Positions 13,801 to 43,193 of a stretch of 64,000 nt of DNA are shown here, one piece after another; within the stretch, counting starts at the first letter, position 1; the number at the start of each line of letters is the position of its first letter. The notes below the pieces were generated by a model, which worked only from the letters and a program-made list of their open reading frames with translations, was not told the origin of the DNA and did not search any database. The stretch is from Mesaphorura yosii (Eukaryota > Arthropoda > Collembola > Poduromorpha > Tullbergiidae): positions 186,001-250,000 of the forward strand of contig WIXG01000069.1 of NCBI GenBank assembly GCA_009869945.1. Direction: 5' to 3'. The translations under genes and the position numbers were made by a program.

Positions 13801-16800
13801 GGAACAAGTAGAGAAAGTCAAGCAGAGTAAACCATTGCCCGTCCCGCAGAAGGATAAAACGTTATTTATGAATCGTGGTCTGGACGGACAAACACGAACC
13901 ACAATCCATTCTGCTTGAGTTTGGGACAAGACCATTCTTTTTGATGAGCACATAAGAAGCGCAATATATTTCATCCCAGTCGGTGCTTCGTGCTTGGCGT
14001 TTGCATTGGCTATTCACAAAACACAAAATAGGTAATACACGCAGAGGAGCGGCAGTGGCGGCAGTCTCATCGTCTAGAATGTCATGAATTCGGTTGGTCG
14101 GCAGTCGACTCGCGAGCTAGTTGAATGAGCGTCTTAGGCAATATTTTTGTAATATCTCAGGCACAAGCAAAACCTCAGGCAGGAAAGGAATTTCTTAAGC
14201 TAGCTAGTCTTGTAAGTAAGTGGCTGCTTCAGGCGATGCGTTGAGTTTGTATTTATTTTTATCTGAATATTTTTGGAGCAATGCCATGAAATGATATAAA
14301 AGCCAAACACGATTTCAGTGCAAAACGCAATGGCAATAGCCAAAGAACGACGGCGACGGCAGCGGCAGGGAATTGCTAGAGACAAGCAGGCAAGCTCACA
14401 ACAACAGTAACAAAACAAGAGCAATAATAATAATATGATGGGAAAAATTATTGGACTCGGTTCTCATTGTGCGAGCTCTATTGTTTGGGTTGCACTGAAC
14501 CGAATTGATGGCACATGATACGTTAATAAGTGCGTTGCGCACAGTGTACGTCTTCTGCTCCCATTTGGATTCATTTCATTTTGTCGCGAACGAAGAAGAC
14601 ACGATACTTTGACTTTTCATGAGACAAAACCACGAGCAATTCGAGAATACCGTGGATTGAGTTCATCTTGGGTCGGTGCCGGGCTCTTCAATAGGATGAT
14701 CTCATGCAAAAGGTCAAATAAGAACGTTGCAATGCAATATACGATACCGAATTAGCACAATACATTGGCTTGCATTCCCATTCAGCATCCAGCTTGCAGG
14801 CAGAAAGCGTAGTACAATAATGAGGTTTGGAAATGGGTCCAAGCTTCATTTAACATGACAGCCAAATTTATGCTTCTTGCAACCACATTTTTGCAATACG
14901 GCAACGCCTGCTTTAAAATTTGTGCGTTGGGGGGGGCGAAGAAAAAAAGGAAACTTTATGATTGTGAGTTGTATTGTTGAGCCTGGTCCAACTTTACAAT
15001 TGGCATTCAGCATTTAGCATTTTATTTAAAGTCTGTCAACAAGTTTTATGTTTCCTCAAACAAGGCACTGATGTCAAATAGTAAATGCTTGAGTTCTAAG
15101 AAGACGTGACGGAAGGCATTTAGGAAATGAATACTACATAATACAGGCGCAAATGGCAAGTGCGTAATTTTTAATTTTTTTTGTTGTGTTTGCGTAGGTG
15201 GGCTGTTTGATATTTGGGACTCGTATGAGGAGACAGCATTTCGTCACGCTGTCGAGAGAGTCAACGGCGGACCCAATACCATGAAAATTAGTGCGCAGTT
15301 GGAGAAACTGGACAGTGGTGATTCTTTTCATGCGTCCAAGACAGGTAGGTAGGGCAAGGAAGGTTTATTCTGGGAGACGAAGGCATTCAATTGCGTGCTA
15401 TGTGCCAAGTAGCCGAGCGAAGCCACTGCAGTAGACTTGTCGGTTCATTCATTCCATTCACTCGTGTATGCCACGCATAAATCCAGGAGACAGTAGCAGT
15501 AGCCAGTGCCAGTGACCCCATAATTTAACCCGTCCACTGTCGTTACAACGATCGCCTTGGCATGTGCACAGAGTGTACTCAAGGGACAGGCTTCGTTGCC
15601 TAACGCAACTGTTGTTGTATGCTGGATCGAAAACATAGCCGCATTGACGGACGACGCGAGTTACCCACATACCTACGATAAGAAAGAAAGCCATAAGAGT
15701 CCTTTGTAATTAAAATGTGGTATAGACTGTTCACTTTTACCGGTCTGACTAGACTACTTACTCTCCTGTTTATTGTACAATCGTGTCACACTCTTGCGAC
15801 AAAATTTGTACTCCTTGTCGAAATTTCCTTCCCCCTGGAGCTCGGGCTTGATTTGCTCGATGAGCGCCTCCGTCTCATTCTTCGTGCCAACGAGTTGATC
15901 GAATGCGTCCTTGTCAGGGTCTTCGCACAAGCGTAGGAAGAATTCGGGCAGAGTGTCCGAGTCGCAGGACGGGTCGTTATACGATGCGCACTGATAGCAG
16001 CTTATGGCAGACTCTGAAGAAATGGTGATAAAGCCGAGCGTCAGTTGTTTATGGCTAAAGCATTCAAGAACGCTTTAATTGCTTACCAACAGGGAATAAT
16101 GAGCCCAGTGTCCCCAATATAAACCCAAACACGACCTCCTGCATAATTAAATCACCAACTTCGGTGAAAGTTTCAAACAAAGCGTGAGAAAATGTAAATC
16201 AGTTAAAAGTCACAATTTTACTGAACTTCGCTGCAGTTTTGCAGTCTCTGCAGTTCGGGACTGAAAAGTCACGCTGCTCAAAACTCAACCATTGAACTGC
16301 GACTTGGGGATTCAAACTTGGAAACGATGAACCAACGACGACCACAACTAACTAATGACTTTCTTAACCACACGTTAGTGAGCTCGCATGAACTTAGAAA
16401 CAAACCATCGACCAAAACCAGTGTATACCCTCGAGAATCTTGCGGTTTTCTAAAACTCTGATGGACAATGAATTATTCATAAGCAGGTTCACGTTTACGC
16501 ATGATTCACTAAGTCGTTAATTTATGCATAAAAATCCCAGCATTTGAGTAACCAAATTACAAAAGTTTCGCTCGTACTCGAATTACTATTATTAGCGTAC
16601 TTGTTTACTTTTATTTTATGGGAATTTGAGTTTGCTTTTGCACCAGCGTACAGCATTTTAGTGTCAATGGAAACCGTAAACTTTTTCTTTTAAAGCAGAG
16701 TAATTTGGGGCAAACCAGCGAGTCGTTCGTATTTCGTCTGACGCCAGTCACATTCACTTAAATAAAAAAAAGTCTGTACTTTCTCTGAAAAGAAATTCGA

Positions 16801-19800
16801 AACAAATCCAGAAAACTGCTGGTCTTACAAGTCAAGTCGAGTCGCGGAGAAGGCAGAAGGCAGGCAGCAGAAGAGATTCATTGTTCAGAGCCATCGCACT
16901 TATAACTTGGACGAGACGAGACGGGACGGAAAATAAAGAATATTGCGGAAGTTTGCTTCAGGATATCTTTTTGTCATATTATTCGTACGAGTACGCGGTC
17001 GTGCGTGCGTAGTCCAGAAAAGAAGCACAGGCGTGGTGCTTACATCAGAATCTGGAAATTTTACTCAATTGGAATAAGAATTCGTCCTAATTTTGGTACG
17101 AGACGAAAAAAGCGAACATTTCCTGTACTCGGCGCGTGCTGAGTGCGTAAGCGCTGATAAATTCACCGAACTTTGCTAATTTTCTCAAAGCGGTGCAAGG
17201 CTCGCTGGTGCGGGATGGCACCTTCTCAGCATTATCTACGCTGCGCTGCCTCCACCGCCCAATTCACCAATTCAAGCACCGAGTCGCGCGACCCACGTAT
17301 TCATATTAGCACCCAATCTCCAGAGACGCAACGATGCAGCACACCACACGAGCTATTCAGCTATTCAATCAGACATTTATACTCTCTGACACGTAATAAA
17401 GAATGTTCTGCTTTCTCTCAATGGAATCGAGAAAGTTTGACGAACGAGTTTGGCCCGAGTCAGCGAGATAGAAACGCGTCAAAAGGAAATGGCAAGTATA
17501 AAAAATAAGTGCCTTCATCCTACTGCCTACTAGCTGCTAAATGCTGTGAGATTGCGTTTTAAGTAATATGAAAGGACGAAGTCAGAGTCAGTAAAAGTAA
17601 AAGTTTGCAGACACGTAGCGAAGAGAAGCGATGGGATATGAACTCATCACGAAAATAGATGGGAAAAGTTTCAGCCAGACCTCATTGAGACGGACGTTGC
17701 TGCGCTACACTGAGAAAGTTGTCATTTCCATGAAAAAGTTGGGCAAATACAATAAAATGAACGCGAACGATGCGCGATGAGAGGAAGAACGCGCGTACGA
17801 GACAGATCAAATATTGAATTACTTTGTGAACTGTGAATGAATAAGTGAACCAAATTCAACTTCAAAGAAGTGGCTTAGCTCATGACTTTCGCTTTGACTT
17901 GGCATTGGCACAGCAAATTCTGATTGACACTCGGGCATTAATTACACTGATTGGATTTAGTATGCTCACTGCTGCAAGATGGGGTTGTTGGAATATTTGG
18001 TCCGCAATCAACGGCCGCGGTGAACCACGTGCACTCAATCTGCGAGATTCTGGGGATTCCGCACATTGAGACAAAATGGGACTTTCGATCCAGCACGGGC
18101 TCCTTCCTCCTCAATCTGTATCCGCATCCGGAAACTATGAAAAAGGTTTGTCGTTCCTCCATCCAGGGTTGAATGCATTTCTTGGTCGGTCCAACTTTGT
18201 CATTTGTCGTCCCACTGCCTCTGCTTTCACTTCCTTGCTCGCTATTTCCTATTTCCTGTGCCTGTGCCCAATGTCTATAAAGCGTTAAACGTGAAATGCT
18301 ACAACGCATGACATTGATTCTATAGTCACGCATTTACACACGAATTTAGCCTCAATCGCTACCACCCGCTCGCTCTATGCCTTACACTATAGTACGCATC
18401 GCAATATTAAATGGCTAGCACAATTTCCTGCTGCTTGACTAATGTTATTGGCACTAAAAGAGTTGACAAATCGGTTATTCTTCGTGCTGGCTGGCGAATG
18501 GGCTCAGATTCTGAAGATTTACTGCTGTGCGTGGAGTTGCAATGAGTAAAGTTGCGGGATTGGTAAAGATTCTTTGGAAAATATAAATTTTTAAGTTGTC
18601 ATTGCCCAAGAAGCGGTTTCTTTTGAGCGTTGCCAAAAAGTTGGTCGGTCTTGGTCGCAAAGTTTACGCACGCACAGTGTCAAAGTATTAATTGAAAGCG
18701 GAGGAGCGAGAAAGAGAAGAACCGAACCAAGCTTAGACCTCGGTCCGGTTACTGTGCTGCACGGAAGAATATAAAATCTGGACTTGAATTTATAAACTTG
18801 AAGCAGCGAGCATTTAACGGGTGCTTTCTCCGCACAAAAATTTATTACAGGAAGAAGCATTCATTTTATTGTCTCCTTGAATTGGAAACATAAAAACGAG
18901 TCTTTTACGCGTTCTTGTCTTTTGTGTGAAGCTTGGTTGAACTCATTCTGCCAAACTCGGGCCGACTATACTTTCTCCACGCATCTTTCCCTTGCCTTGT
19001 TCCCGAAAATATCTCCTGTGACCGACCCTGCAACGCAACACACCAAACAACAACGCAATAAATCATAAACATAACCCAGTTGAACTGCACTACAGGCGTA
19101 TGCAGATTTAATGTCTGAATGGCGATGGGGCAAAATTATAATTTTGTATGAGAGTCACGAAAGTCTCGAGCGTCTCCAAGGAATCTTCCAGCTCACTGGG
19201 CCAGGCTACATTGCCACTGACATCGTGGTGCAGCAGCTGCCCAGCCCTCAGCTGCGTCCTGGCTTCCACACGTACACGAGTCCCAACAACGAAGAGAACA
19301 TTTACTGGCCGCTCATGAAGCGACTGAAGGATACGTATCCAGACTACACGTACGTGATCGTGGATGCGGCCACTGACAAAGTGCCAGAGATTATGAAGGC
19401 TGCTGATAAGAGCGGAATGACCAAAGACAATTACAAGTATTTTCTAACTTCGCTCGTAAGTCAAGCCAAGATTTAACGAAATTCAACCTGGACTTTTTTC
19501 AATCATTGGTTCTGGCGACAGGACATTCACACTCTGAAAGAAGAAGAGCTCCGTTACGGTGAAGTCAATGTGACAGCCTTTCGTATGGTGGATCCGGACG
19601 ACGAGTTGGTGTCGGAAGTGATAAACAGTTGGAACCTTTGGAAGGTCGCTGGACGAGTGGCTTTTGAATCAATACCTGTTACTTACCAATGGTATCGCAA
19701 GTCAGATTATGCCAACACGCCGCAGATTCTCATCCCTGATGATATGCCTGATTTACGCAACGGAACTTTGCGTTTGGAGACAGCACTGATCTACGATGCA

Positions 19801-22800
19801 ATAACACTTTTCGCTGGGGCATTTCAAACACTGCTGGCTGAGAATCAGCAACAAGGTCAAGGTTCATATTCAAGACTGGAGATCAAGCCAGTAAGCTGTG
19901 ATACACCAATTGCGTCGTTGTACGGCGCAGGCCTTATGTCAACAATGAAAGCAGTAAGATCCAGACTTATATTGAGAATGCCGAGAGACATAATTTAATA
20001 GAGATCTTGGTCTGGTTCCCAGTTGAAATTCAAAGGGCTCACTGGAATAATTGATATTGATGCTGACGGATTCAGACGTGATATTACGCTCGATGTGATG
20101 GAGATGAACAAGAAGGTAAGATGTGTAACCATTCAGTAGTGACCACGATTTGAATTACGTGGCGTGCTACTGCAGGGTTACGAGAAAATTGGCGAGTGGA
20201 GCACGCGAGGTGTACCTGCGTTCACTTGGACCCGTAGTATCGAGGATACAAAGAAACTACAAACTGAAGACTTGAAACGTGCCAATTTTACGGTGGCTTC
20301 TGTTCTGGTGAGATCCCGAATCACAGCACAGGTTAAAAATTTCAATCATTGTGTGATTTGATACTAGACGGATCCTTATTTCATGTTGAACGGAACGGAT
20401 GGGAGTTACATGGGGTTCGTTGTTGATCTGATGGATACACTGAGGCAGAATTTGGGGTTCAAGTACGCCTTCAAACAAGTTGATCAGCATGGAGGGAAGA
20501 AAGACGGGCGTTGGACGGGCTGCATTGGCGAAATACTCAACGATGTTAGTGAAACGGACAAAACATGTCTCATTCATTTTCACTCCTTGCGATTTTACGA
20601 TCGTAGACGGTTGACCTATGCATCGGTGACATGAGCATCACGTACGATCGTGGCAACGTAATCGATTTCACAACTCCCTTCATGAATCTCGGCATTTCAA
20701 TACTGTACACAAAGCCGTTCAAGAAACCGTCCTTCATATTTTCGTTTCTGCAACCATTCCATAGCGATGTGTGGATTTACATGGCTACAGCTTATCTGGG
20801 AGTATCACTTATCCTTTTTATCTTGGCCAGGTAAGAGCACTTTACCGGAGCGTAGCTGGAAAACCATACCCAGTAATTATAACGATAGAGTAATGTAGTA
20901 AATTGGCGCACACACACAGGGTAACTCCTGATGAATGGCAAAGCGATGAATTAGGGCGAAGAGATACGCTGGAGAATCAATTTACTTTGCTCAATGCACT
21001 TTGGTTCGCAATTGGGTCCATGATGGGGCAAGGCAGTGATGTCCTGCCCAAGTAAGGGATGAATTTGCCTTGACCACCCGAATTGTGGCATGCACGACCC
21101 TTTGCCACATTACTTCCACGACCCCAACTGAAATATAAGTCTGTGACGTACAGTACGTTTCCTTATCCGACTCCGCCTGCGATACCACAAATCATAATCA
21201 CGTCAATCACGTGGCTATCCGTTGTCGCTTTAGTTGTGATTAATCATCGATGTCGTACTCCTTGTATGAAACCAAGTCCATTCTCTAACAAGGGCGAATT
21301 TCTGGAGCGAAAAATGATAGCTCCTCTTAACCGAAGTGATTTTGCTGATATCTCTTCTCCCTACTTCATAATCGCACGAATGCTAATTGGGTCCCCTACA
21401 CTTTACCTGAAACTCTAAGAGTTTACCTCACTTCCTTGTTATTTTCAAGAATAAGCCCTCAAGAATGGACTTCCTCGCATATTTGTGTTGAGAATCCTTC
21501 CGAGCTGGAGCTTACCCTGCACTTGACCAACTCCCTTTGGTTCACCATTGGATCTCTTATGCAGCAAGGTGACCACCACCCGACCATGATGATCATACGA
21601 CCATGTAGGATATTCATATGCTGTGACTACCATTTTCGTTTTCAGGTTCTGACATCGCACCAAGGCAAATACAACCCATTATTGTCCTAATCCTTAGTTG
21701 TTGGTTCCTTTGCCTTTTGTTTTGACATAAAGCATGGCATAAAGCATGCGGCTGTAGATTTAGGTGTGGCCTTTTTGCAAGAATTGATTCGTTCCTTGAG
21801 GCTTTTAGCGTTTTAGCGCTGTTTTCGTTTTCTATGTTCGAGTTTTCCTTAAGTGTTCGATTCTTGACTAATGTAATCAAGTCAATGAACGAATAGGGCG
21901 GCATCAACGCGAATGGTAGCTGGGATCTGGTGGTTCTTCACACTCATCATGATTTCATCGTACACAGGTCAGCAGCCTTTCTTAGTCAGTAGTAATCAAA
22001 TTAGATGTTCACTAGCTCAAAAAATCTTGCCCATGCCACGCGTCAACTGTCAAAACAATTAACTCATCGCATGCTGCGTGGTGATTCTGTCACTTAGCTA
22101 ACTTGGCCGCTTTCTTAACGAGCGAGGGCTTGGAGGAAGGGATCAAAGACATTAGTGACCTGCCCAAACAAAGCAAAGTCAAGTACGGAACCCTGCAGAC
22201 TGGAAGTACCTTCAGATTCTTTCAGGTGCGAACTAAATGATACTCGATGCATTTGATTCTTGTGCCTAACACGTTGCATTGTACTCATCCAGGAATCAAG
22301 CTTTCCATTGTACATGGAAATATTCAAAAACATGGAGGCCATGAAACCGAAGCCGTACGCTTCGACCTCGGGCAAAGGTCGTGAAATGGTGGAGAAGGCC
22401 GATGGGAAGTATGCGTTCTTCATGGAGTCTGTGAGCATCGAGTATGTTACGGAGCGGTACTGCAAACTGACACAGCTGGGCGGCCTACTTGACCAGAAAG
22501 GCTACGGAATCGGGCTCAAGAAAGGTGAGACGAAATACAGATGAACAAGTTCCCGATACAACAGCAACAGCTGCAAGATTCTATGTTTCATGCTTCAGGA
22601 TCAAAATTTCGCGATGTTTTCACCACCCAAGTGCTAAACTTATCGGAAAACGGTGTGATTGAACAATTAAAGAATAAATGGTGGAAGAGCCCTGAACACG
22701 GAGGTGGCAAGTGTCAGGTGAGAAAGATTCTGTCAGCGGCCAAATACAGCCAACTTATACATCATTCATACGTGCAAGAAAAAAATTCAATTATAAACGC

Positions 22801-23374
22801 CCTTTGATAGAAAGAAACGGTGTCTTCCGGCGGCGCGCAGGCCTTAACCATGAGTCACGTTGGTGGTGTCTTTGTGGTGCTTCTGGGCGGATGCGTCCTG
22901 GCCATTATCATGGCCTTTGTCGAATTCTTCTGGAAAGCACGAAAATTGGCGCTGCAGGGGGGCGTAAGTTGGTCAAATTTCTTATCTTGTGATTTTTATT
23001 CTTGTACCAGCAAATTACCATCGCCACATTTGTGTGTTTATATGTTTTTATCTAACAAGCGTGCCATGAGAGAGATAAATCGATAATTTGGTAATCCCAA
23101 GTTGGACAGCAGCTCATGGCCAACTATGATTAAAATCCGAATTGCTCTTTAGAAATCGGTCTGGGCTGAAATTGGCAAGGAGCTGAAGTTCGCACTGCTG
23201 TGTCAAGGAGAGACGAAGCCGATCCGGAAACGGGAGAGTCTGAATCCGACTCTGAACAGTGAGGCTGAGAGTGCGAGATATCTCGTTGGGAGTATGGGCA
23301 CAGGTGGCACCGGAGGCGGTGGCGGCACGGGGAACAATATGACCAGGAACTCATCGTTGGATCAAAAGGAATGA
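10854..23374 (+). CDS. kainate-type ionotropic glutamate receptor subunit (copy 1)
   Basis: Exons: 10854-10956, 15198-15344, 17961-18145, 19096-19455, 19522-19953, 20023-20115, 20176-20307, 20368-20544, 20607-20830, 20920-21051, 21897-21967, 22098-22225, 22293-22524, 22599-22717, 22811-22963, 23153-23374. They give 969 residues, normal for the family. A signal peptide is followed by the amino-terminal domain ([20 protein letters not shown]), the S1 ligand lobe (residues about 470-590), M1 ([18 protein letters not shown]), the pore loop, M3 with canonical SYTANLAAF, the S2 lobe and M4 ([20 protein letters not shown]). The glutamate-contact Arg (ITYDRG), Thr (GSTFRFF) and Glu (FFMESV) are kept. 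The Pro of vertebrate PLAIT is Asp (GDMSIT). It forms glutamate-gated cation channels at the plasma membrane. Introns 1 and 2 are 4.2 and 2.6 kb, unlike the others. An alternative pore exon lies at 21450-21664. AATAAA is at 23508. Confidence 0.93.
10957..15197 (+). other. large first intron of kainate receptor 1
   Basis: This 4.2 kb intron separates the signal-peptide exon from the rest of the receptor. It starts GTAAGC and ends TTTGCGTAG. I found no convincing nested gene; open frames here are short, low-complexity and unsupported by splice sites. Several GTACGYGTACG-like palindromic stretches (near 11325-11347) and a G run near 14931 are visible. First introns of this size often hold regulatory elements, but none can be named from sequence alone. 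Confidence 0.6.
15458..16144 (-). CDS. Ly6/quiver (Sleepless)-like secreted or GPI-anchored protein, nested in a receptor intron
   Basis: Three minus-strand exons, 16144-16087, 16013-15762 and 15672-15458, join in frame to 174 residues. A hydrophobic leader ([19 protein letters not shown]) precedes the classic Ly6 opening [14 protein letters not shown]. Ten cysteines follow, ending in [10 protein letters not shown], the CxCxxDxCN signature of three-finger Ly6/uPAR domains. The tail after CN ([14 protein letters not shown]) is hydrophobic and may be a GPI signal, though weak. Drosophila members such as Quiver/Sleepless, Boudin and Crooked act at neuronal or junctional membranes, and Quiver modulates potassium channels and acetylcholine receptors. 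The gene sits entirely inside intron 2 of the kainate receptor on the opposite strand. The exact family member is not determined. Confidence 0.75.
16145..17960 (+). other. remainder of kainate receptor 1 intron 2 (upstream of the nested gene)
   Basis: This stretch is the 3' part of intron 2 and also the likely promoter region of the antisense Ly6-like gene. No coding exon is recognised; the open frame at 17173-17508 has no splice or family support. The intron ends in GGATTTAG before 17961. Confidence 0.5.
18146..19095 (+). other. intron 3 of kainate receptor 1
   Basis: A 0.95 kb intron from GTTTGT to CACTACAG. No nested gene is seen. Confidence 0.6.
20920..21051 (+). other. pore-loop exon, version A (Gly at the Q/R-equivalent site)
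   Basis: This 132-base exon runs from RVTPDEW to GSDVLPK and encodes the M1-M2 linker and re-entrant pore loop. The loop apex reads [13 protein letters not shown]. Aligned to vertebrate WFGVGALMQQGSE, the first Gln of QQG, the RNA-editing Q/R site, is Gly here. Acceptor (ACACAG) and donor (CCCAA|GTAAGG) are good and the phases (2 in, 2 out) match version B. Confidence 0.8.
21450..21664 (+). other. pore-loop exon pair, version B (Gln at the Q/R-equivalent site)
   Basis: Two exons, 21450-21568 and 21646-21664 (138 bases together), encode a second complete pore loop from RISPQEW to GSDIAPR with apex [13 protein letters not shown]. Input and output phases equal those of version A, so either can join exon 9 to exon 11. 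The internal intron interrupts the codon after MQQ. The last donor is a GC type (CCAAG|GCAAAT). The frame is intact and the residues are those expected in a working channel, so it does not look like a decayed copy. It keeps a Cys (SSHICVENP) that also occurs in the second receptor gene but not in version A. Confidence 0.75.
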
Positions 23375-24187
23375 CCAGAGCATGGAGCAAAGTCAACTCA
23401 AGAAGCTTACGCATGACATATTTTGTATGAAAACTCTACACTGTGCATGAATCGGTCCAAACAAAACAGATTGCCATCCACAGTCTGGCTAAAGATTCTT
23501 AATGAGCAATAAAAGTAGCATTCTCATTAAAATAAGTGCTATTCATTTATTGTGAACATCTGGCATCATTGTTCTGGTGTGCTCGCCATTATTATAGCTT
23601 CTTTAACTTCGATTCTATTACTTCACTTATCTTCATCTCTGCAGCGCGTAATCGTCGCAGCCGCAGTCTCTTTCTTAGAAAAGTCATGAACCATTCAAAT
23701 GGAACTCTGCCCAGCAATCGTAAATAAGATAAATCGCGTGTCACATCACATCCATATCCTGGCAATGGGAGTAGGCAATTGTTTATTGTTCTTGCATATG
23801 GAATTCTTGGCACTGAATTAAAATTCTTGCGTCTTCGACTCCCTTATTATTTACGGGTTCGGAGCCGATGGTTGCCATTCACCTGGTCTCTTCTGCTGTC
23901 TCCTCACAGATGCACCGATGCGATAAGAATCGCGTCGTGGCTTTCGTACTTGGTGACAAGATGAATCGTAATCGCAAGTCGCATGCTGGCGTCTCCTGTA
24001 AATGAACTTCGGTTGAATCTAGGCCGTCCATGCAGCTTTGTTATTCTAAAATTAGAGTCTTCGTCGCACCGAACTGAGCCGGTGTGATTGCGATGGAGTG
24101 CTTGAATTCTTTCAGACCAGTGCAGTGCCTGATTCAATTTGTAAATAGTAAACAGTAGTGGTCGCGGTGCACCAGCACCATTGCACG
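23375..24187. other. intergenic between the two kainate receptors
   Basis: The first 140 bases are the 3' UTR of receptor 1, with AATAAA at 23508-23513. The rest is the upstream region of receptor 2. No TATA box at the proper distance from the ATG at 24188 is evident. Confidence 0.5.
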
Positions 24188-27100
24188 ATGCATTTGTCCA
24201 TGCGGCTCATTCTGATTCCGGTTCTGATCATTGTCATCCGCCTAATCCCTCCAACCAGCCAGCAACAGCGTAGAAATATTCGAATCGGTCAGCAACCATT
24301 CAAACGCCAATAATCTCTGACGTAACGCATGTCTCATTTCTTTGCAGGTGCACTTTTCGAGGACACGTCCGATCCTCTCGATGAAATAATCTTCAAGCAT
24401 GCAGTTCAGCGCATAAACTCCGACTCGAAAGTTCTTCCCAACTCCAACTTGAACGTCCGGATCGAGAAAGTTGCTGCCGGGAATTCTCTGGACCTCTCGG
24501 AGAAAGTATGCACGCTTATGCGGCAGGGAATTGCTGCCATATTCGGGCCAGGCAACACCGCGGGAGCCAGTTTGACTGAATCAATCTGTGATGTGTTCGA
24601 TATTCCACACATTGAGACCAAGTGGGACTTCCAGGCATCGCACAAGCATAAGATTAATTTACACCCACACCCCCATTCGCTGAGTCTGGTAAGACAATCA
24701 GAGTTATACTACTCCAGTCTCTTCTCAACTTACGTGTGAACCACTTTCACAGGCGTACAAACAAATTGCCGAGGAATGGCAATGGAAGAAGTTCGTAATT
24801 CTATACGACGATAATCACGGTCTCGCTCGACTCGACGAATTGCTCAAGTCCAAGGTCCCCATCGATCGCAGAGTGATGATCCGCCAACTTCGGTCACCGG
24901 ATGGAATTGACGACTACCGCGAACTATTGAGGGAAATCATGGCTGAAGAGGACTACAAACATATTGTGCTGGATTGCAGCGCTTTGAAAGCTCAACTTGT
25001 CCTGAAGCAGGCTCAGCAGGTTGGAATGATGTACTCCAGCTACAGCTATCTGCTCACTACACTGGTAAGCATTAAATAGCTGCTTAATCACGGACATAAA
25101 GAATATTAGAAAACAGTTCATTTGTGTCAGGACATTGAAACGATGGATCTAGAAGACTTCAAGTACAGTGGAATAAACATTACTGCTTTCCGTCTGGTTG
25201 ACCCGAACAGACCTGAGGTCAGAACAGTGATTAACGAATTGAGTGCAATGATGATGGGTTCAACCACTCAGAATCCGTACGCGTATAATCAATTCTCAAT
25301 GCCGATGAAGCAGCAGCCTTACCTGCCGCCGGGATCACAAAATGGCTTCGGGTTCACTCCTCTCGTTAATTCTTCAACGTTGCAGAGCTCAATGACGGTT
25401 CGTAAAATTTAATATAACTTCTAATGTTAGAAGCGAGAAAGGCTTATGTAGGATTAACATTTTGTACTGTTGTAGACTGAAGTCGCACTGATGTATGACG
25501 CTGTCCAGCTGCTCAGTGAGACTCTTCATGTGCTGGACAACATTCAGAAAATTGACATTCGTCCACTGAACTGTGACCGGAGTGAGCAGTGGCGTTTTGG
25601 CTCCAGCATCGTGAATTACATGCACCTGGCCCAGTTTCAAGGACTCACGGGCGTAATAAAATTCGATCCCGAAGGCTATCGATCATCCATCGTCCTAGAC
25701 GTGGTTCAAGTCAGAGAAACGGGCGTCCAAAAAATTGGGTACTGGAACACAAATCAACCGGACACGTTCAACTTTGATCTGGTCCGGAGGGCCGAAGCGA
25801 GTAGACAAGTGACTCAGTTCTCAGAGTGCAACGAGCTTCAGAAGTGCACGTTGAGGGTCACGACGTTTCTGGTCAGTCCTCTAATTTTATCGAAACCGAA
25901 GAGTCCAACCCATACTAATTTTCTGTGATTGATAGATTCCTCCCTTCTGCATGCTGAAGCGATCTCAGAAAGACTTGCACGCGAATGATCAGTATGAAGG
26001 CTTCGTCGTGGATTTGATGGAGAGGCTGGCGCAGAATTTGAGGTTTAAATACCTCATTCAGATTGTGGCGGATGGTAAGTACGGGTCGTTCAACCAAACG
26101 ACGAACACGTGGAATGGAATGATTGGCGAGGTTCTGAATAATGTAAGTACACAGACATTTCACCGATTCCTGATGCCAGAAGGTCCTGACTTTTGACTCC
26201 TCCTTTGTAGACGGCGGATATCGCTGTAGCTGACCTGGCCATCAGCAAAGTCAGGCAGAGCGCAGTCGATTTTACAATGCCGTTCATGAATCTAGGCATT
26301 TCCATACTTTTCACCACGCCAAAGGCCAAACCTCCCGGCTTATTTTCGTTTATGTCGCCATTTTCCTTCACTGTTTGGGTTTGCATGGCCATCGCCGTGT
26401 TCGGAGTTCCGTTGGTGCATTTCGTCATTGGCAGGTAAAGTCGCATAAAAAGCGAACTCATACCTCAGTCTTGTACATCATTGCCTCAAAAATCCTGCTC
26501 TTATCAGAGTAACTCCACAGGAATGGGACAACCCATTCAACTGTGTCCAGAACCCGAAAGTGCTCCACAATCAGTTCACACACCAAAACAGTTTCTGGTT
26601 TACAGTTGGCAGTATTATGCAACAAGGATCTGATATTGCACCAAAGTAACGTTTGACCCATTTCACCCAAATTACAAATTGCTGAGAGCTGTGAAATGAT
26701 AGAAAGGCGATCTCCACTAATCAAACTAATGAATTGACTCGAAAGACTTATTGTTTGTATTTATGGGTGTTGCACCATTTCACAACATAAATTGGTTTGA
26801 TTTGATTTGCTCTAACGCCTGGTTTCAGAATTTCACCGTTTGAGCGCAGACTAATATCCAGCTGCTGTTATCAGAGCACCTCCGCCTCAACTGTCGGAGT
26901 TCGTCGTATTCGCAAAGTGACGCTTGGTGACTCAATTCACTTTTGCATCTCATCTCTGCTGTGGCATTCCTACGAAATGTTTCCAAAGTACTAACCAAAT
27001 TAACACTATACTTTGCTTTTCAATTTTGTGTGTGATTTGCTTGGATGCTAAGATTTTATCTCTGAAATCAATTCTTCCTAATTCCACAGGGCCATTTCAA

Positions 27101-28210
27101 CGAGGATGCTCGCTGGCACGTGGTGGTTCTTTACTCTGATCATGGTCTCTTCATACACTGCGTCCCTGGCCACGTTTCTCATCGTGCAGGATCTGGACGA
27201 GAGCATCAAGAGTCTGGAGGATTTGGCTGCTCAAACAAAAGTGAAATACGGTTGCGTCGACGGAGGAAGCACGGCAGCGTTCTTCAAAGACTCGTCGATG
27301 GACGACAAGCGCAAGATTTGGGACAACATGATTCGAATGAAGTCCACCAAGAAAGACAATGACGAGGGAATCCAGGCGGTGGTGGAGGCGAACGGTTTAT
27401 ATGCGTTTTTCATGGAGTCGACACTAATCGAGTACAACATAGAGCGAATTTGTGGGCTGGCCCAAGTCGGAGGGTTGCTGGATAACAAAGGATATGGAAT
27501 CGCGATGAGAAAAAGTAGGTTCAGAATTAGTCGTCTTTATAAAAAGTGATAGCCGTATTTTGCGCACTCAGATTCCACGTACTTGGGTCAACTCAGTTCT
27601 GCAATACTCCAGCTCCAGGAAAAAGGAGTTTTGTCTGATCTAAAGCGCAAATGGTGGAAGGAGGAACGGAAGGAGACGACTTGTGAGGTAAAGATTACGA
27701 GCATAATTCGTATTGAAAGTAAAATTTTAATGATCATATGCGATCTGTCGGTTTCAGGTCAAAAGCGCTAGTGACAACGTGGAAGCTCTTAGATTCGTGA
27801 ATCTTAGTGGCGTGTTTGTCGTCCTCGTCGTTGGGTGCATTGTGGCGACTACGCTCGCATTTTGTGAGCTGTTTGTTAAAACCAGTCAAACTCCTCTTGA
27901 TGAAAATGTAAACTTCGCAATGCAATGCAATCGTCTTGATTTACTTGCAAACAGAATTGACAGTTGGCTTTCATTACAGGAAAGTCGTTGGCAAATGATG
28001 AAAAATGAGCTGCACTTTGCCTTTGCGTGCAAAGGGAATGTGAAGCCTGTAAAGAAGAAATTGTCTGTCAGTGTCGGTGGGGCTGCAGAGGTCGGATCCG
28101 CGAACTTCCTAGACCTTGGCATCACAAATTCATACGGGTTCCCGAAAATGGGACAGGCAGGCTCGCCAATCACAACCGAATTGGCTGATTTGAGTAGAGA
28201 TAATTACTAG
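24188..28210 (+). CDS. kainate-type ionotropic glutamate receptor subunit (copy 2)
   Basis: Exons: 24188-24287, 24348-24688, 24753-25064, 25131-25397, 25476-25871, 25936-26142, 26211-26434, 26508-26645, 27090-27514, 27572-27687, 27758-27907, 27980-28210. They give 968 residues. A leader ([13 protein letters not shown]) is followed by the amino-terminal domain ([19 protein letters not shown]), S1, M1, a pore loop with [13 protein letters not shown]3, S2 and M4 ([20 protein letters not shown]). The ligand-contact Arg (ISKVRQ), Thr (GGSTAAFF) and Glu (FFMEST) are present. M3 reads SYTASLATF instead of the near-invariant SYTANLAAF. Compared with copy 1, exons are fused (S2 is one exon) and introns are short, and there is no alternative pore exon. 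Tandem position and shared intron borders show duplication. The donor after exon 4 (ACG|GTTCGT) is weak, and the last intron (27908-27979) is 72 bases and open in frame. Confidence 0.93.
26646..27089 (+). other. intron 8 of kainate receptor 2
   Basis: A 444-base intron after the pore exon. I looked for a second pore exon as in copy 1 and found none. Confidence 0.65.
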
Positions 28211-28421
28211 GCGCATTGTGGTACGTTTTGAATGCTGAACTTTACTTTACTACAGAGCTCTGAATTAGCGTAATTCTAATTCACATGCTTACAATATGCA
28301 AGTTACGCAGAAAGAAACTCACAGAAGAAGATATGAAGATACTCAAATGATAATGATTAGAGTACATTAAAAGTCCGTGGGAGATTGAAGTTCTTAATTA
28401 ATTGTTGACTTGCCGCTCGAA

Positions 28422-28933
28422 TTACTTCCTAATCCCGAAGCGATGATCAGTGAACGGATTCACTGATGGAACTTTCATGCCATCAATGCAGTTTGTGTCT
28501 TGCCAAACCATTTGCTCCTTCTTCGTCTCGTTGAACCTCTTCATAGCATGATCGACTGTGATGGTCTCCAGCGGGTCGTCCATGAGATGTGTGGGGTGAA
28601 CAAACCAGTCCTGAGTGCAGATTCATAAACAAAGTCAACGTCAAGGTCAAGCTCCTGCAATGGAAGAGGCCTGAAGCCACAAAGTATAAGTAAAAGAGCA
28701 GTTTACCAGTCGTGGCTGAAGATCGCTGATTGTTGCACTTCTCCAGCTGCTGTCTTGTCCAATCTTATTGAACTGGCGAAATGCCTGGAGATTCCGATTG
28801 AAGCAATCACCCATCTTGTCGGTTGAGTTCAAGCGCAGGCTCAACTGAAGTGGAACAAAATGGGACTATGTTTTCGACTGTCAGCTTGCAAAGAAGGCCA
28901 TCATGCGTACCGAATCAATTGCGAACCTGCCAT
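28422..28933 (-). CDS. hypothetical 114-residue protein
   Basis: A three-exon minus-strand model (28933-28911, 28839-28707, 28610-28422) joins in frame. It starts MAGSQLIRLRLNSTDKMGDC and ends with a polar, charged exon (DWFVHPTHLMDDPLETITVD) and the C-terminus PFTDHRFGIRK. There is no signal peptide, membrane helix or known motif. The last exon has clean borders (CACTCAG acceptor) and a long open frame; the first acceptor (GTTGAG) is unusual, so the 5' end may be wrong. It lies convergently just downstream of kainate receptor 2. I do not recognise a family. Confidence 0.45.
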
Positions 28934-29317
28934 AACCCTATGCGCAAGAAGACAAGTAAAAGAGAGTTCTATCGGGATCTTGGTTTGCTCTGTCACTGAA
29001 TGCAAATGCATTATTTGGGTATTTTGAGGATTAACACTGGAAGCTTTTTACAGAGAAGTTTTCGTTTTGAAGCAATATGTCTTTATTTAGGATGGAATAT
29101 TAATGTTGAACATTTAAATGATGCAGCCGCTACATTCTAATCATTACGATTACGAGTTTACAACATAGTCGAAGTATATTACTTCAGAGCAGGAATACTG
29201 AATATCGAGTTATCACAATCTCTTAGCACAGCGTCACAAATGTTTACTTCAAGTACATGATTTCTGAGTATTGTTTGTTAAGCTCCATGCCTTAGCTTAG
29301 GATTTTCATTTTAGTAT
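28934..29317. other. intergenic
   Basis: AT-rich spacer between minus-strand genes. Nothing is recognised. Confidence 0.5.
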
Positions 29318-37402: not shown

Positions 37403-40260
37403 ATGCGATTCCCTTTGGACTCACCAGAGGAGAATCGAAATCAAGAAGTAAATGGAGACAATGGCGAAATGGTGGTCCCTAAGTTGATTCAACAAAGAAT
37501 GACACGCCAGCACCATATCACGCGAACGACAGTGACCTTCAAGGTTAGATATGTGCTAATGTGCTTCACTGTTCAGGTTAGAGTTCTGAAAGTAGTCGGT
37601 TCTTCAGCTAAACTCGACATTGCGCGCAAACCAATCTCAACTTACAGGAACCTTTCTGGTCAGGGATCCAAAATGGGGAAACGTACGCAGCTACAAGAGA
37701 AGCTGAATGATGGTACCGTTCTCGTCATTCCCGAAGAAGAGTTGCCATCCTGCTGCAATTCTTGCTATGGGTACAACTGCTGGTGGGAACCTCCTTCATC
37801 AGAAGCAGGGCCAAGCTGTGGCAACGAGTGTCTGTCGATGGATTTTTGTCGAACATCTAACATACATGGGCTTAAATATATTGGCTTAGTCCAGGGCCAC
37901 TTTGTCGAGAGGTGAGTGAATATTTTGAAGGAATGCGACACTGGCGTCCATTTCGCATTGCGCTGAAATCTTATTCTTACAGAGTTGTATGGAGCATCAT
38001 CTTTTTAGCGGCGGTTGTAGCTTCTGTCTACTTGATTCGTGAGAGCGTGGCCAAGTACATCTACAGCCCCGTCACAGTCACCTTCACAGAAAAGGCGATC
38101 CACATCGACGATATCCCGTAGGCCACTTTTAAGCGCAATCTCCCACAAAACGATTTGTATGCGTGGTTTCTCAATCTATAATTTTAAAGGTTTCCGGCCG
38201 TTACAATCTGCAATGTAAACAACTTACTTCTCTCCAAAGTTGACGAACTATTTCTGAATGCCGACCTTGGAGAAGCACGGGGCTTGTCGGATGAAGAGAT
38301 TCAAGAGTCCATCAACAATATATCATATGTGGAACATGTCTGCGATGCAACCTTAAACAGCTTCAGCTCCAAATTCGACGTCTTTAGAAGCTGGAACAAG
38401 AAGGTGGACGATTGGAACCGCAAATTTAAAGATATGTTGACGCCTGAACCAAAATTCGATGTCGTCCCCTTCTTGCAAACCTACGCACAGAAGTGTTCTG
38501 ACATGATCAAGCTGTGTCTGTGGCAAAGCGAACAACTTGCGACCTGTCACGATTTGTTCCATGAAGTAATCACAGATTATGGTAAGGGGCTTCCATAAAT
38601 TTGCTCACATACGCAACTTGAACGTAGACAGCCATGGATGTAGGAGGGCAGGAGAGTCGACATTTGTGTACCTTGACTGTTTACAAAATCCGTCAGCATG
38701 TTTCTGAAGAATTGTCCTTTCATTTCTTCAAGGGAAGTGTTGTGTCTTCAATATGGCACCCGAGTCGCTGCTCGTCAAGGATCCACGAACAAGCATCCAC
38801 CGTGTAGACATAGCCAAGCAATGGAAAGAAGGAGACTTTGACACTGACTCACTAATCGTAGCCGAACACGCAGAACAAACCCACCACGATAAATACCAAC
38901 GAGCTCTTCCGGAATATCCAAAGCGTGCAAAGGGCTCAGGGCTATCGAATGGAATTTCAATCATCGTCGACCCGGACTTGGACAATTATTTCTGTGCTGC
39001 AGCGGATTCGGTTGGATTTCGGGTATCTAACTTAATTGACTTAGCATCAAGGGTACTAATATTAGTGATATTTGTAGCCAACACGGAAGTATTGTTTATT
39101 TCGGTTTCCAGCTTAGTGTCCATCTCCCGATTGAGTTCCCGCAAGTCGCCGAGTACGGGGACGCCATACCACACCGCACCGAATCGTATATAAAAGTAAG
39201 ACCTGATGTGACCAAGGCTGATGACGATATGCGTGATTTACCACTGGTAATTTCAACTTCGAATACTCAATGAAGAATCGTTAAATACATTAAAAACCAT
39301 GTTGTTCAACAGGAAGTTCGAAACTGCTATTTCAGTGGGGAGTATCAGTTAGCATATTTCAAAAAGTACACACGCCAGGTATATCGAAAACACTAAAAAC
39401 AAGTTTAATTCTTTTAACTATTTTTACCTCAAAATTTCTCCACCAGAACTGTTTCGACGAGTGCTACGCCAATATCACCTACTATAATTGCAACTGTACG
39501 AGGTTCTACATGCCACGCAAGTTTATTTTGTTTCTCCCTTTCGCCGCTATAACCGCGACCTATATCTTCTCAAATAATTTTTTATTCCAGGAGATACGGA
39601 ACGCGCGTTGTGCACTCATGAACAAATCAACTGTACCATGGGTTTTAGACATTATTTTCAGGAAAATCCAGATACGCTGGACAAATACTGCGGAATGTGC
39701 CGAATAACGTGCAACTACCTCAGTTACTCAGCAGAGGTAACTTCAAAGCCCATAAGAGACGACATCAATATATGGGTTCATGAGCAAGGACTTCATACGA
39801 GGCACTGGTAATTTCTCGGCTTGTACTTTCACCTTTTGTATTGAATATCGTTACATTGATTGGCCAAAATTTCAGGAAGGGCAAAAACTTGTCCATAATC
39901 CACGTATACTTTGCTGAAGATACAACATATCCTAAGGTCAGAAAGCGCCTGCTTGGTATAACCGATCTTCTGGCGTCTATTGGCAGTCTTTTGGGGATGA
40001 CGATTGGCTTCAGTGCCCTGAGTTTGTTCGAGTTCGTGTACTTTGGCTTCAAGAAAGTAATTGGCTGCATGCTTCGGGGCCTGAGGGTTCGAGAATGTTG
40101 CCATGAAGATTTTTGGTGCTGCTGTTGCGGGAAAGCGGATTCCCAAGATGAAGACGACGAACAAGAGGTGGTGCACACGCGAAGAAGAAAGTCATTTGGG
40201 AGACGACGCAGTCAGGCACTCGCGCTGAGACGAGTGACTCCAGCCCACGTTCAAAATTAA
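37403..40260 (+). CDS. DEG/ENaC family sodium channel subunit (copy 1)
   Basis: Exons: 37403-37911, 37983-38117, 38190-38581, 38733-39022, 39112-39246, 39313-39378, 39447-39516, 39591-39807, 39876-40260; 732 residues. The N-terminal cytosolic part holds a Cys/Trp-rich stretch (SCCNSCYGYNCWWEP) and the gating His-Gly (SNIHGLKYIG). M1 is VVWSIIFLAAVVASVYLI, followed by the family marker FPAVTICNVN. The extracellular loop has TDYGKCCVFN, IEFPQVAEYG and NCFDECYANITYYNCNC. M2 is SIGSLLGMTIGFSALSLFEF with the G-x-S selectivity filter as GFS. Such channels are trimers passing sodium, gated by protons, peptides or force. The C-tail is Cys-rich then basic. Intron 7 is GC-AG. The first 90 codons are poorly constrained, so the start may lie further in. 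AATAAA is at 40358. Confidence 0.9.
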
Positions 40261-40546
40261 AACTTGGCTTAGAGCCATCACATGGGATGATAAGTACCGA
40301 GAAATGACAATTACTATTAATGAGCTAGCATGAAACTATTTGTTAAAGATCGCTTTAAATAAACACTGGTCAAGGGCACAAGAATCAGTTTCGCGAAATA
40401 AACTGCGACTTAAAATCGGCATTTGACCCATGAACTAGCAGAAGAGAATTCGCAGGACACAGAACTTAAATTATTTTGACAACATTTTCACAGAATTGTA
40501 GTGAATTGTGTTCTAGTAAGAATTTCATTCTGGTCAGCCTATCGGC
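40261..40546. other. intergenic between DEG/ENaC genes
   Basis: Short spacer with the copy 1 poly(A) signal AATAAA at 40358-40363. Confidence 0.6.
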
Positions 40547-43193
40547 ATGAGCAAGCATCAATTAATATTTCAGGAAATTAAAAGGGTTAATTTGCTCGAT
40601 TACGAACGAAACAGGAGTAAGATTTCGCCGATGATGCCTGTAGTTACACGGAGCAAGACAATGGCGATGAGATACGGGAATGGCTACTACGGAGGATACG
40701 GATATGGCCAACAAACTCTGTACCCACTCCCCGAAGAGGAGAAGGAAGCCGAAGATGTGTGTCCGCCATTTTGTAACTCGTTCCAGGGACATAACTGCTG
40801 GTGGGAGCCTTCGGAAACCTGCTACACGGCAGAATTTTGTCGTAGCTCGAGCATGCACGGGCTAAAATTAGTCGGGGAGACGTCTGCTCATTTTTTGCAA
40901 AGGTCAGTGCGAATTGCGAATAATAAGAATAAAGAAATTATGCGATAGTAAAATGATTGTCTTTATCAGGGTGCTCTTCCTGATTCTGTTCATCCTTGGC
41001 ATTCTAACATCGTTCTATTATGGAAGCAACATCTGGGAAAAGTTCATCCAAAGCCCAACCATGGTGACGTTCACCGAGCAAGCCATCCGCATCGAAAATA
41101 TTCCATTTCCAGCCATCACTGTCTGCAACGTGAACAACGTCCGCAAATCTCACGTGGAGAATCTGACCAGGTACCGTAAAGAGGTTAGCGTAGTTTCAGA
41201 AACTCTTAGTACCTAATTTGGTCGTCCATTTATTTCCTAGGATCCTTGAGAGCGCCAAAGAAGAAGGGAGATCGGATGAGGAAATTCAAGAAATATTCGT
41301 CAAATTAGAGTTTATGCAAACTGTGTGTGAATCAACCACACGAAGCCTCACATCCGAATTCAAGTTCAACTTCAGTGCACGAGTAATTGCAGAGAGATTG
41401 CATGCTTTTCTTGAAAAATTTGATGGGCCTGAGTGGCAGAAGGCGGGACTGACACGGACGCCATTGAACACAATGAATCTGCTCAGGGAAGTTGACGTAA
41501 GCGATTCTAGTCTAGTAGCACTACTGATTCGCAGCTTCAACTGCATTTTCAATTACAGGTGGACCAATCCTGCTCTGAAATGATTCCTTACTGCCAATGG
41601 CGAGGAAAACTGAACGACAGCCTCGAAAGGGGCTGCCATCTTTTCAGATCTGTAATTACAGATTTTGGCAAATGTTGCAGCTTTAACCTAGCGCCGATAC
41701 CTCTTCTCTTTCGCAATCAGTTAAGCACGGAATTTGTTTTTCATCTTTCACATAATTGAACACATGACAAATCCTTTTCAGACAGCATAGGCTTGACCTT
41801 GACCCGGAAGAACTAAGTGAAATCGAACGATGGAATTCTAGCGATCTCAACGTAGAAAATTTGGTCATCGAACCAAAAAACGAAAAAGGCCCTCCAAAAT
41901 TTCGGGAGCTTCCTTTCAGAACAAGAAGCGCGGGTCAGGCGAACGGCTTATCCATCATGCTCTTTCCCGAGATTGACGATTATTTATGTACTACATCGGA
42001 TTCTATGGGATATCACGTAAGACAGTAATAATATTTAACGCTAATTAAGCAACTGAACCAATCAACGACCTTTCATTTTGACCACACTTTCACAGTTCTT
42101 CGCTCACATGCCGATCGACTTTCCACATGTGGCGGAATACAGTAACATGCGAATTAAATACCTTCGTTGTGCAAATGTTTGTGCATTTGAGCCTTTGGTT
42201 TTTTAATTAAGGTGAGGCTATTGGTCCAGGAGTTGAAGCATTTTTCAAAATTACACCAGAAGTCACGAAGGCGGCTCCAGAAATTCGTGATTTGACATCG
42301 GTATGCTTGCTGCTTTTGCTTCATGAGTGAAGACAATTGATGTGTATTTGTATTTTAGAGTGAGAGAAGGTGCTACTTCAGTGACGAATTTGAGCTGCAG
42401 CATTTCAGGTTCTACTCTGAAAGCAATTGTATCGATGAGTGCATTGCGAATCTCAGTTTGGAAGTTTGTGGTTGTGTTAGTTTCTACATGCCACGTAAAG
42501 CACTGGTTCATGCTAAATTCCAAATTGCGTTTCTCTTTTACTGAATTAAGCACACTACTCTTTGCTTTGCTAGAAAATGAATCGACACCGATGTGTCACG
42601 ACGCGAAAAGCGTTGGGTGTACCCTCAACGTGGGCGAACAACTAAAAAAGCTCAAGTATGATTTCATCGCTGACTACTGCAAGAACTGTTTGCCAACCTG
42701 CACAGACGTCACGTATCGAGCTGATGTGAGCACAAGAGAGCTTAACTATGGGGTTAATGATTGGAGCAGAAGCGAGTTGAACCTGTCGGAGTTCGAGTCC
42801 TCGAAAGTCTCCATCGTACATCTCTACTTCGATCAGGACTCGACGGCCCCTAAAATACGAAAGAGATTGTATGTTCTGAATGATATGATTGCCAACATCG
42901 GTGGTCTGCTTGGCCTCACTCTTGGACTCAGCGTGCTGAGTTTGGTCGAATTACTGTACTTCTGTGTGGTCAAAATTTGTGTCAAGAATCTTAAGAGCTG
43001 TTGCAGTGGTCGTCGGTGCATGAGGAAGATGCGGAAATTTTGCTGTGGAGCAAAGCCGAAAGACCAGCGTTTGGTGATGCCAGTGGCCGCAAGGGTGACA
43101 TTTATTGAGCCTCAGCCGCGGATGCATGGCTATCAAAGTTACGGTCACGCTCCTTTGTCGATGCCTCATTCCTATTATGCCGCACATCAATGA
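40547..43193 (+). CDS. DEG/ENaC family sodium channel subunit (copy 2)
   Basis: Exons: 40547-40902, 40970-41170, 41241-41496, 41560-41720, 41782-42016, 42096-42141, 42212-42300, 42359-42494, 42574-43193; 699 residues. It repeats the plan of copy 1: a Cys/Trp-rich cytosolic module (PFCNSFQGHNCWWEP), His-Gly (SSMHGLKLVG), M1 (VLFLILFILGILTSFYYG), FPAITVCNVN, TDFGKCCSFN, GEAIGPG-like EAIGPGVE, NCIDECIANLSLEVCGC and M2 (NIGGLLGLTLGLSVLSLVEL) with GLS as filter. The C-terminal tail is Cys-rich (KSCCSGRRC) and ends with a Tyr/His-rich segment. Introns partly match copy 1: the border after FYMP is shared, but copy 2 has fused exons at FPA and at the CYF/NC region. AATAAA is at 43262. The exon 4 donor (AATCA|GTTAAG) is inferred from frame. 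Confidence 0.9.

Follow-up and report, generated by a model that had tools for sequence, protein, structure and literature searches.

Two tandem alternative exons probably encode the re-entrant pore loop of a kainate-type glutamate receptor gene in the springtail Mesaphorura yosii

A kainate-type glutamate receptor gene of Mesaphorura yosii, here called K1, probably encodes its re-entrant pore loop in two tandem alternative exons, A and B, which would constitute an old splicing switch of the selectivity filter. The gene is modelled at 15198-23374 on the plus strand of the window, the whole 64,000-nucleotide stretch of DNA that was analysed. It is proposed that splicing runs from the M1 exon to either A or B and then to a common M3 exon. 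The ligand-binding parts would thereby remain constant, and the pore helix, the filter and the pre-M2 linker would change with the exon chosen. Exon B would supply a conservative loop with Gln at the Q/R site, and exon A a variable loop, with Gly in this species. Subunits of the A and B forms could assemble into mixed tetramers and would be expected to have different Ca2+ permeability, polyamine block or conductance.

The first-pass annotation had described two versions of the pore segment, both complete and intact, in the stretch from M1 to M3, and its coordinates (20920-21051, and 21450-21568 joined to 21646-21664) proved exact. The spliced K1 model also bears out that both versions are entered and left in phase 2 and that either fits the same flanking exons, as A alone or B alone gives one open frame to the stop codon. 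Two features did not appear in that annotation: the Gly at the Q/R site of A and the GC donor of B.

Table 1. Positions in the window of the K1 gene features and of the neighbouring paralog K2.
Feature	Position	Strand	Evidence
K1 upstream coding exons: amino-terminal domain, S1 ligand-binding half and M1	15198..20830	+	Open spliced frame, Pfam
Individual K1 upstream exons	15198-15344, 17961-18145, 19096-19455, 19522-19953, 20023-20115, 20176-20307, 20368-20544, 20607-20830	+	
Common M1 exon; ends in phase 2, donor CAG/GTAAGA	20607..20830	+	
Pore exon A (VTPDEW...); Gly at Q/R site, leans to first-loop type	20920..21051	+	GluK2 alignment, profiles, tree
Pore exon B, part 1 (ISPQEW... to first base of a Gly codon); Gln at Q/R site	21450..21568	+	
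Intron of 77 nt within the filter Gly codon of B	21569..21645	+	
Pore exon B, part 2 (remainder of the Gly codon, then SDIAP and two bases of the codon that follows)	21646..21664	+	
GC donor of exon B, part 2	21665-21666	+	
Common M3 exon; entered in phase 2	21897..21967	+	
K1 downstream exons: S2, M4 and tail, to the stop codon	22098..23374	+	
Individual K1 downstream exons	22098-22225, 22293-22524, 22599-22717, 22811-22963, 23153-23374	+	
K2, tandem kainate-type paralog; one pore exon found (26508-26645, QQGSDIAPK)	24348..28210	+	

The K1 model starts without a signal-peptide exon. Its A isoform contains the Pfam domains ANF_receptor, Lig_chan-Glu_bd and Lig_chan in this order, all over the cut-off. 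When the piece of isoform A from the end of S1 to the start of S2 was compared with proteins of solved structure, the closest relatives among the best 60 of 333 distinct sequences were kainate receptors: the two top-ranking ones are labelled simply 'Glutamate receptor', ranks 3-18 are kainate 1/2/3/5, and AMPA receptors follow. The nearest full-length relatives among the matches listed are from springtails, namely Folsomia (49%) and Orchesella (47%). By the names of its database matches, K1 is a receptor of the arthropod KaiR1D/kainate-2 kind. In an alignment with GluK2, the residue at the GluK2 Gln position, which we take to be the Q/R site, is Gly in exon A and Gln in exon B.

Exon A measures 132 nt and exon B 138 nt (119 + 19), and the introns from the M1 exon to the M3 exon measure 89, 398, 77 and 232 nt. 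Spliced K1 encodes 934 amino acids with A only and 936 with B only. As the frame also stays open with both loops (980 amino acids) and with neither (890), frame alone does not enforce exclusivity. The two exons are tandem and homologous, share phases and flanks, and either alone keeps the frame; that they are spliced exclusively in M. yosii is a prediction.

The borders of exon A and of the first part of B are canonical (AG before, GT after), and the second part of B is bordered by AG and a non-canonical GC. On matrices built from the splice sites of K1 and K2 (23 donors, 23 acceptors), exon A scores 8.77 at its donor and 5.77 at its acceptor. The corresponding scores for exon B are 2.82 for the first acceptor, 5.2 for the first donor, 11.21 for the second acceptor and 2.42 for the GC donor AAGGCAAAT. 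The low scores of B lie within the range of the locus, in which 3 of 23 donors and 5 of 23 acceptors score lower, and its second acceptor beats all 23 K1/K2 acceptors. On these small matrices, B, with its GC donor and a first acceptor weaker than that of A, looks like the regulated choice, and A like the easier default. A weak GC donor is reportedly needed for regulated splicing of let-2 in C. elegans (Farrer et al. 2002, as cited in the available part of PMC7242645).

RNA pairing was considered as a mechanism for the switch and rejected as evidence for it. In the strongest inverted repeat, 20946-20966 of exon A can pair with 21349-21369 of the intron between A and B, and the fold of 20900-21500 is more stable than shuffled sequences (z -2.8; 20 shuffles). 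Inverted repeats of this strength, however, turned up in 26 of 500 shuffled sequences, and 7 of 45 consecutive segments of the window, the K1 locus among them, contain one as well. A weaker repeat (79%) joins the two donor regions.

Exons A and B are 72% identical over 47 nt of DNA and 43% identical over 46 columns of protein, and over their last 26 codons they agree in 15 residues. Each loop matches Lig_chan or kainate pore sequences far beyond chance, and a search of the assembly with either one matched the other K1 copy and kainate-like loops elsewhere. Chance resemblance or an artefact of exon calling was ruled out by frame, splice sites and homology.

Receptors with two loops recur in insects and crustaceans, which supports the alternative-use reading. 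The comparison covered 192 different proteins, comprising the best 120 of 1673 over threshold and 72 more among the best 120 of 351; they were clustered at 90%, and the counts refer to representatives and are weighted to moths and locusts. By motif, two filters lie between M1 and M3 in 44 of the 192 proteins listed and one in the other 148. The 44 two-loop relatives are double-inclusion gene models. By name, they include insects (beetles, stick insects, crickets, bugs, bees and wasps, moths, thrips, a mayfly and a dragonfly) and crustaceans (crab, crayfish, shrimp, amphipod and ostracods). Two dipteran proteins among the matches listed have one loop per receptor unit, Phlebotomus P0145 and Bradysia P0002, the latter a fusion of two units.

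The two loops of these proteins differ in their filters and at the Q/R site. Among the 44 double-loop proteins listed, the first filter is mostly QGCDFLPK- or QSCDFLPK-like; in one ostracod, both filters read QQGSDIAPK. The Q/R residue of the second loop is Gln in all 44, and that of the first is Gln in 31, Arg in six, Ala in four, Cys in two and Gly in one. By name, Arg occupies this site in all eight hymenopteran first-type loops listed (six in double-loop and two in single-loop proteins), Ala is found in four Hemiptera, Cys in a crab and an amphipod, and Gly in a cricket. The single-loop proteins listed carry Gln in 146 cases and Arg in two. A first-type filter is recognised by motif in 25 of these 148, several of them near-identical locust forms, and reads GCDFLPK (20), SCDFLPK (2), RQGCDILPK (2) or GGDLLPK (1).

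Eleven isoform or protein pairs, chosen by hand, were aligned; their isoform names are database predictions. Five of the chosen pairs join isoforms of one species that have a single loop each (S. gregaria X1/X2, S. americana X1/X2, Macrosteles X1/X2, Cloeon X1/X2 and Euwallacea X3/X4). In all five, the partners are equal in length and all of their 12-13 differences fall within the pore segment, as alternative use predicts. The choice between A and B that the first-pass annotation expected thus gains support from relatives. Two pairs across locust species show one further difference outside the pore segment. All three moth pairs (Cydia amplana, C. splendana and Spodoptera litura) contrast both loops with the second loop only, and no lepidopteran first-loop-only form was seen among the matches listed, in which clustering at 90% may hide one. 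A Vespa pair likewise contrasts the second loop only with both, with long gaps elsewhere too.

Loop types were assigned with profiles of 29 different first loops and 27 different second loops, taken from 41 double-loop proteins under a narrower motif count. In leave-one-out calibration, 28 of 29 first loops and 27 of 27 second loops were placed correctly; the failure was ostracod P0037. Exon B scores as the second type (86.7 versus 76.4 bits, a margin of 10.3). Exon A leans to the first type (64.7 versus 60.6 bits), and its margin of 4.1 sits at the low end of the first-loop calibration margins, which run from 3.8 to 17.7 with the one failure at -12.2. Loops from GluK2, clam, spider and springtail score as second type, from which it appears that the second type is the old state.

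A tree of 103 loops was built on 46 columns, and its bootstrap had not settled. Within these limits, exon A falls inside a set supported at 99/95, together with 11 single loops and all but three of the first loops (26 of 29). Those three (ostracod P0037, crab P0033 and amphipod P0039) group outside this set, so that a first-type loop followed by a second-type one is not a universal order. Exon B is sister to the Folsomia loop (100/87). Exon A has the longest end branch in the loop tree (1.14), and AU tests did not reject trees in which A was held with B (cost 13.3 log units, p 0.271) or with B and Folsomia (cost 11.3 log units, p 0.266). Exon A lies upstream of B in K1 and falls in the set of first loops, but its first-type margin is only 4.1 bits and duplication within its own lineage has a p of ~0.27. 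We take A to be, perhaps, a rapidly diverged loop of the first type; a duplication in its own lineage is also compatible.

Some second loops of double-loop proteins (P0031, P0035, P0041, P0042, P0043, P0045, P0061 and others) have W-H-N, not W-F-T, in the pore helix. These W-H-N loops group apart in the tree (99/90, 11 rows), and from this separate grouping the split between first and second loops may be older than a gene duplication.

Conservation across orders was assessed in seven comparisons, five of first loops and two of second loops, between predicted proteins that are open by construction. Loop identity ranged from 38 to 45 of 46 residues, against 83-86% in the rest of the protein, and the loop clearly exceeded the rest in five of the seven comparisons, including three of first loops. 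First loops compared among Cloeon, Schistocerca, Tenebrio and Euwallacea were identical at 40-44 of 46 positions in four comparisons, with 83-86% elsewhere; the Euwallacea first loop was about equal to the rest (40/46, 87% versus 84%). The first loop of a bee, with Arg, compared with that of a locust was slightly below the rest (38/46, 83% versus 85%). On decay of one version in related species, the outcome that the first-pass annotation had set against its own reading, such proteins bear through conservation, since their lack of stops follows from the way they are predicted: in four of five comparisons the first loop is at least as conserved as the remainder, and in one slightly less.

These data bear on whether A could be a lineage-specific duplicate, decaying or rarely used, with B as the sole working pore. 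The long branch of A, the AU tests that allow its grouping with B, its Gly at the Q/R site and its lack of the NPHPC-like stretch found before M2 in many relatives would all fit such a history. We nevertheless consider it unlikely, as A is open and keeps the pattern W F. I G. M M. Q G S D.. P K, its donor and acceptor outscore the GC donor and first acceptor of B, first loops are conserved in other species, and the best tree places A among them. Decay of B instead, to which its GC donor and weaker first acceptor might point, is very improbable: B encodes a nearly canonical loop (QQGSDIAP) that is sister to that of Folsomia, its low scores are undercut by other K1 and K2 sites, and its second acceptor surpasses every other at the locus. 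GC donors also occur in regulated exons, let-2 being an example in the part of PMC7242645 that is available.

It is also quite unlikely that A is a cassette exon added to B, yielding a protein with two pore loops in series. Such a protein would account for the presence of both loops in 44 of the 192 proteins listed, for the two-loop isoforms of Cydia amplana, C. splendana and Spodoptera litura, whose sister isoforms lack the first loop only, and for the open frame of K1 with A and B together. It sits poorly with the first-loop-only isoforms in five same-species pairs and with the first-type filters of 25 of the 148 single-loop proteins listed, and we know of no receptor structure that fits two re-entrant loops in one subunit. 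Alternative use of A and B thus remains the preferred reading.

Each element of the proposed switch has a precedent. According to the accessible part of PMC8257547, the mutually exclusive flip/flop exons of AMPA receptors encode the last part of the ligand-binding domain (the end of S2, with the S2-TM4 linker) and affect gating. They resemble the K1 pair in being exclusive exons of a glutamate receptor gene, but lie at the end of S2, not at the filter, whereas the K1 pair lies between M1 and M3. Invertebrate NALCN, as described in the available part of Senatore et al. (2013, PMC3557258), has two mutually exclusive pore variants with alternative filters. It shares with K1 the combination of one ion-channel gene and two pore variants that differ in the filter; it differs in having four homologous domains and in not being a glutamate receptor, and its variants are confirmed by cDNA in snail, whereas those of K1 are predicted from the gene. 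In GluA2, GluK1 and GluK2, A-to-I editing of one codon changes Q to R at the Q/R site and abolishes the Ca2+ permeability of receptors with edited subunits (PMC8257547, same part). Editing and the putative K1 switch would both choose the Q/R residue after transcription; editing converts one codon from Q to R, whereas exon choice in K1 would exchange the whole loop, with Q or G. The vertebrate contrast drawn in the first-pass annotation agrees with the same source, which locates flip/flop at the end of the ligand-binding domain and attributes changes at the Q/R site to RNA editing.

Database models of KaiR1D or 'kainate 2' belong to the same kind of gene and include annotated proteins with either or both loops; they are isoform or double-loop predictions only. 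No description of alternative pore exons in a glutamate receptor was found in the titles and abstract openings of the open-licence PMC papers listed, and the accessible part of PMC6720082 makes no mention of them. Flip/flop exons and alternative NALCN filters are known; their combination, a filter switch in a glutamate receptor, was not found described in these papers.

It is quite possible, although we would not favour it, that the Q/R site of the arthropod kainate receptor is set by exon choice instead of RNA editing and, as part of the same tentative reading, that the second exon is held at Gln and the first is a free module with residues hard-coded by lineage. If this were true, the Arg exon of Hymenoptera would encode in the genome what vertebrates obtain by editing to Arg, and arthropods in general would use the switch to set Ca2+ entry per cell type. 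A filter-swapping exon switch would provide a second, independent means, besides editing, of setting Ca2+ permeability. Genes of this kind occur among the matches listed in bees, locusts, moths, bugs, beetles and crustaceans.

Other glutamate receptor genes of the assembly were also surveyed for pore loops. A tblastn search of window positions 14000-29000 with K1 and its loops (E 0.01) found no further pore-like exon near K1 except that of K2, and no second pore exon in K2. In tblastn searches of pieces, most of 1.1-1.8 kb, the paralogs on contigs C97 (two genes), C6, C116, C186 and C2 had one loop each, and the pieces from C70 and C26 gave fragmentary loop matches only. An intron at the filter position (after QQ) is also found in the two C97 paralogs; A and K2 have none there. 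In the kainate-like paralog on C6 (L044, minus strand, about 1094-957), the single loop found carries Arg as its Q/R residue (LLRQGSGLNPK).

On contig C341 (L043:5192-6068), a second glutamate receptor gene has a seemingly duplicated cassette of S1 end, M1 and pore before one M3 exon. The first copy occupies a single exon, read as entered in phase 0 and left in phase 2, and its Q/R residue is Arg (IFRQETSIYP). The second is interrupted by an intron and carries Gln there (LVQQGSDRTP). The two copies are identical at 44 of 105 aligned residues. Elsewhere in the window, two nearby open stretches at 39784-43190 match the amiloride-sensitive sodium channel family (ASC). Across the whole assembly, many open frames of about 640-800 amino acids match Lig_chan, as would be expected of an expanded, intronless family of chemosensory ionotropic receptors.
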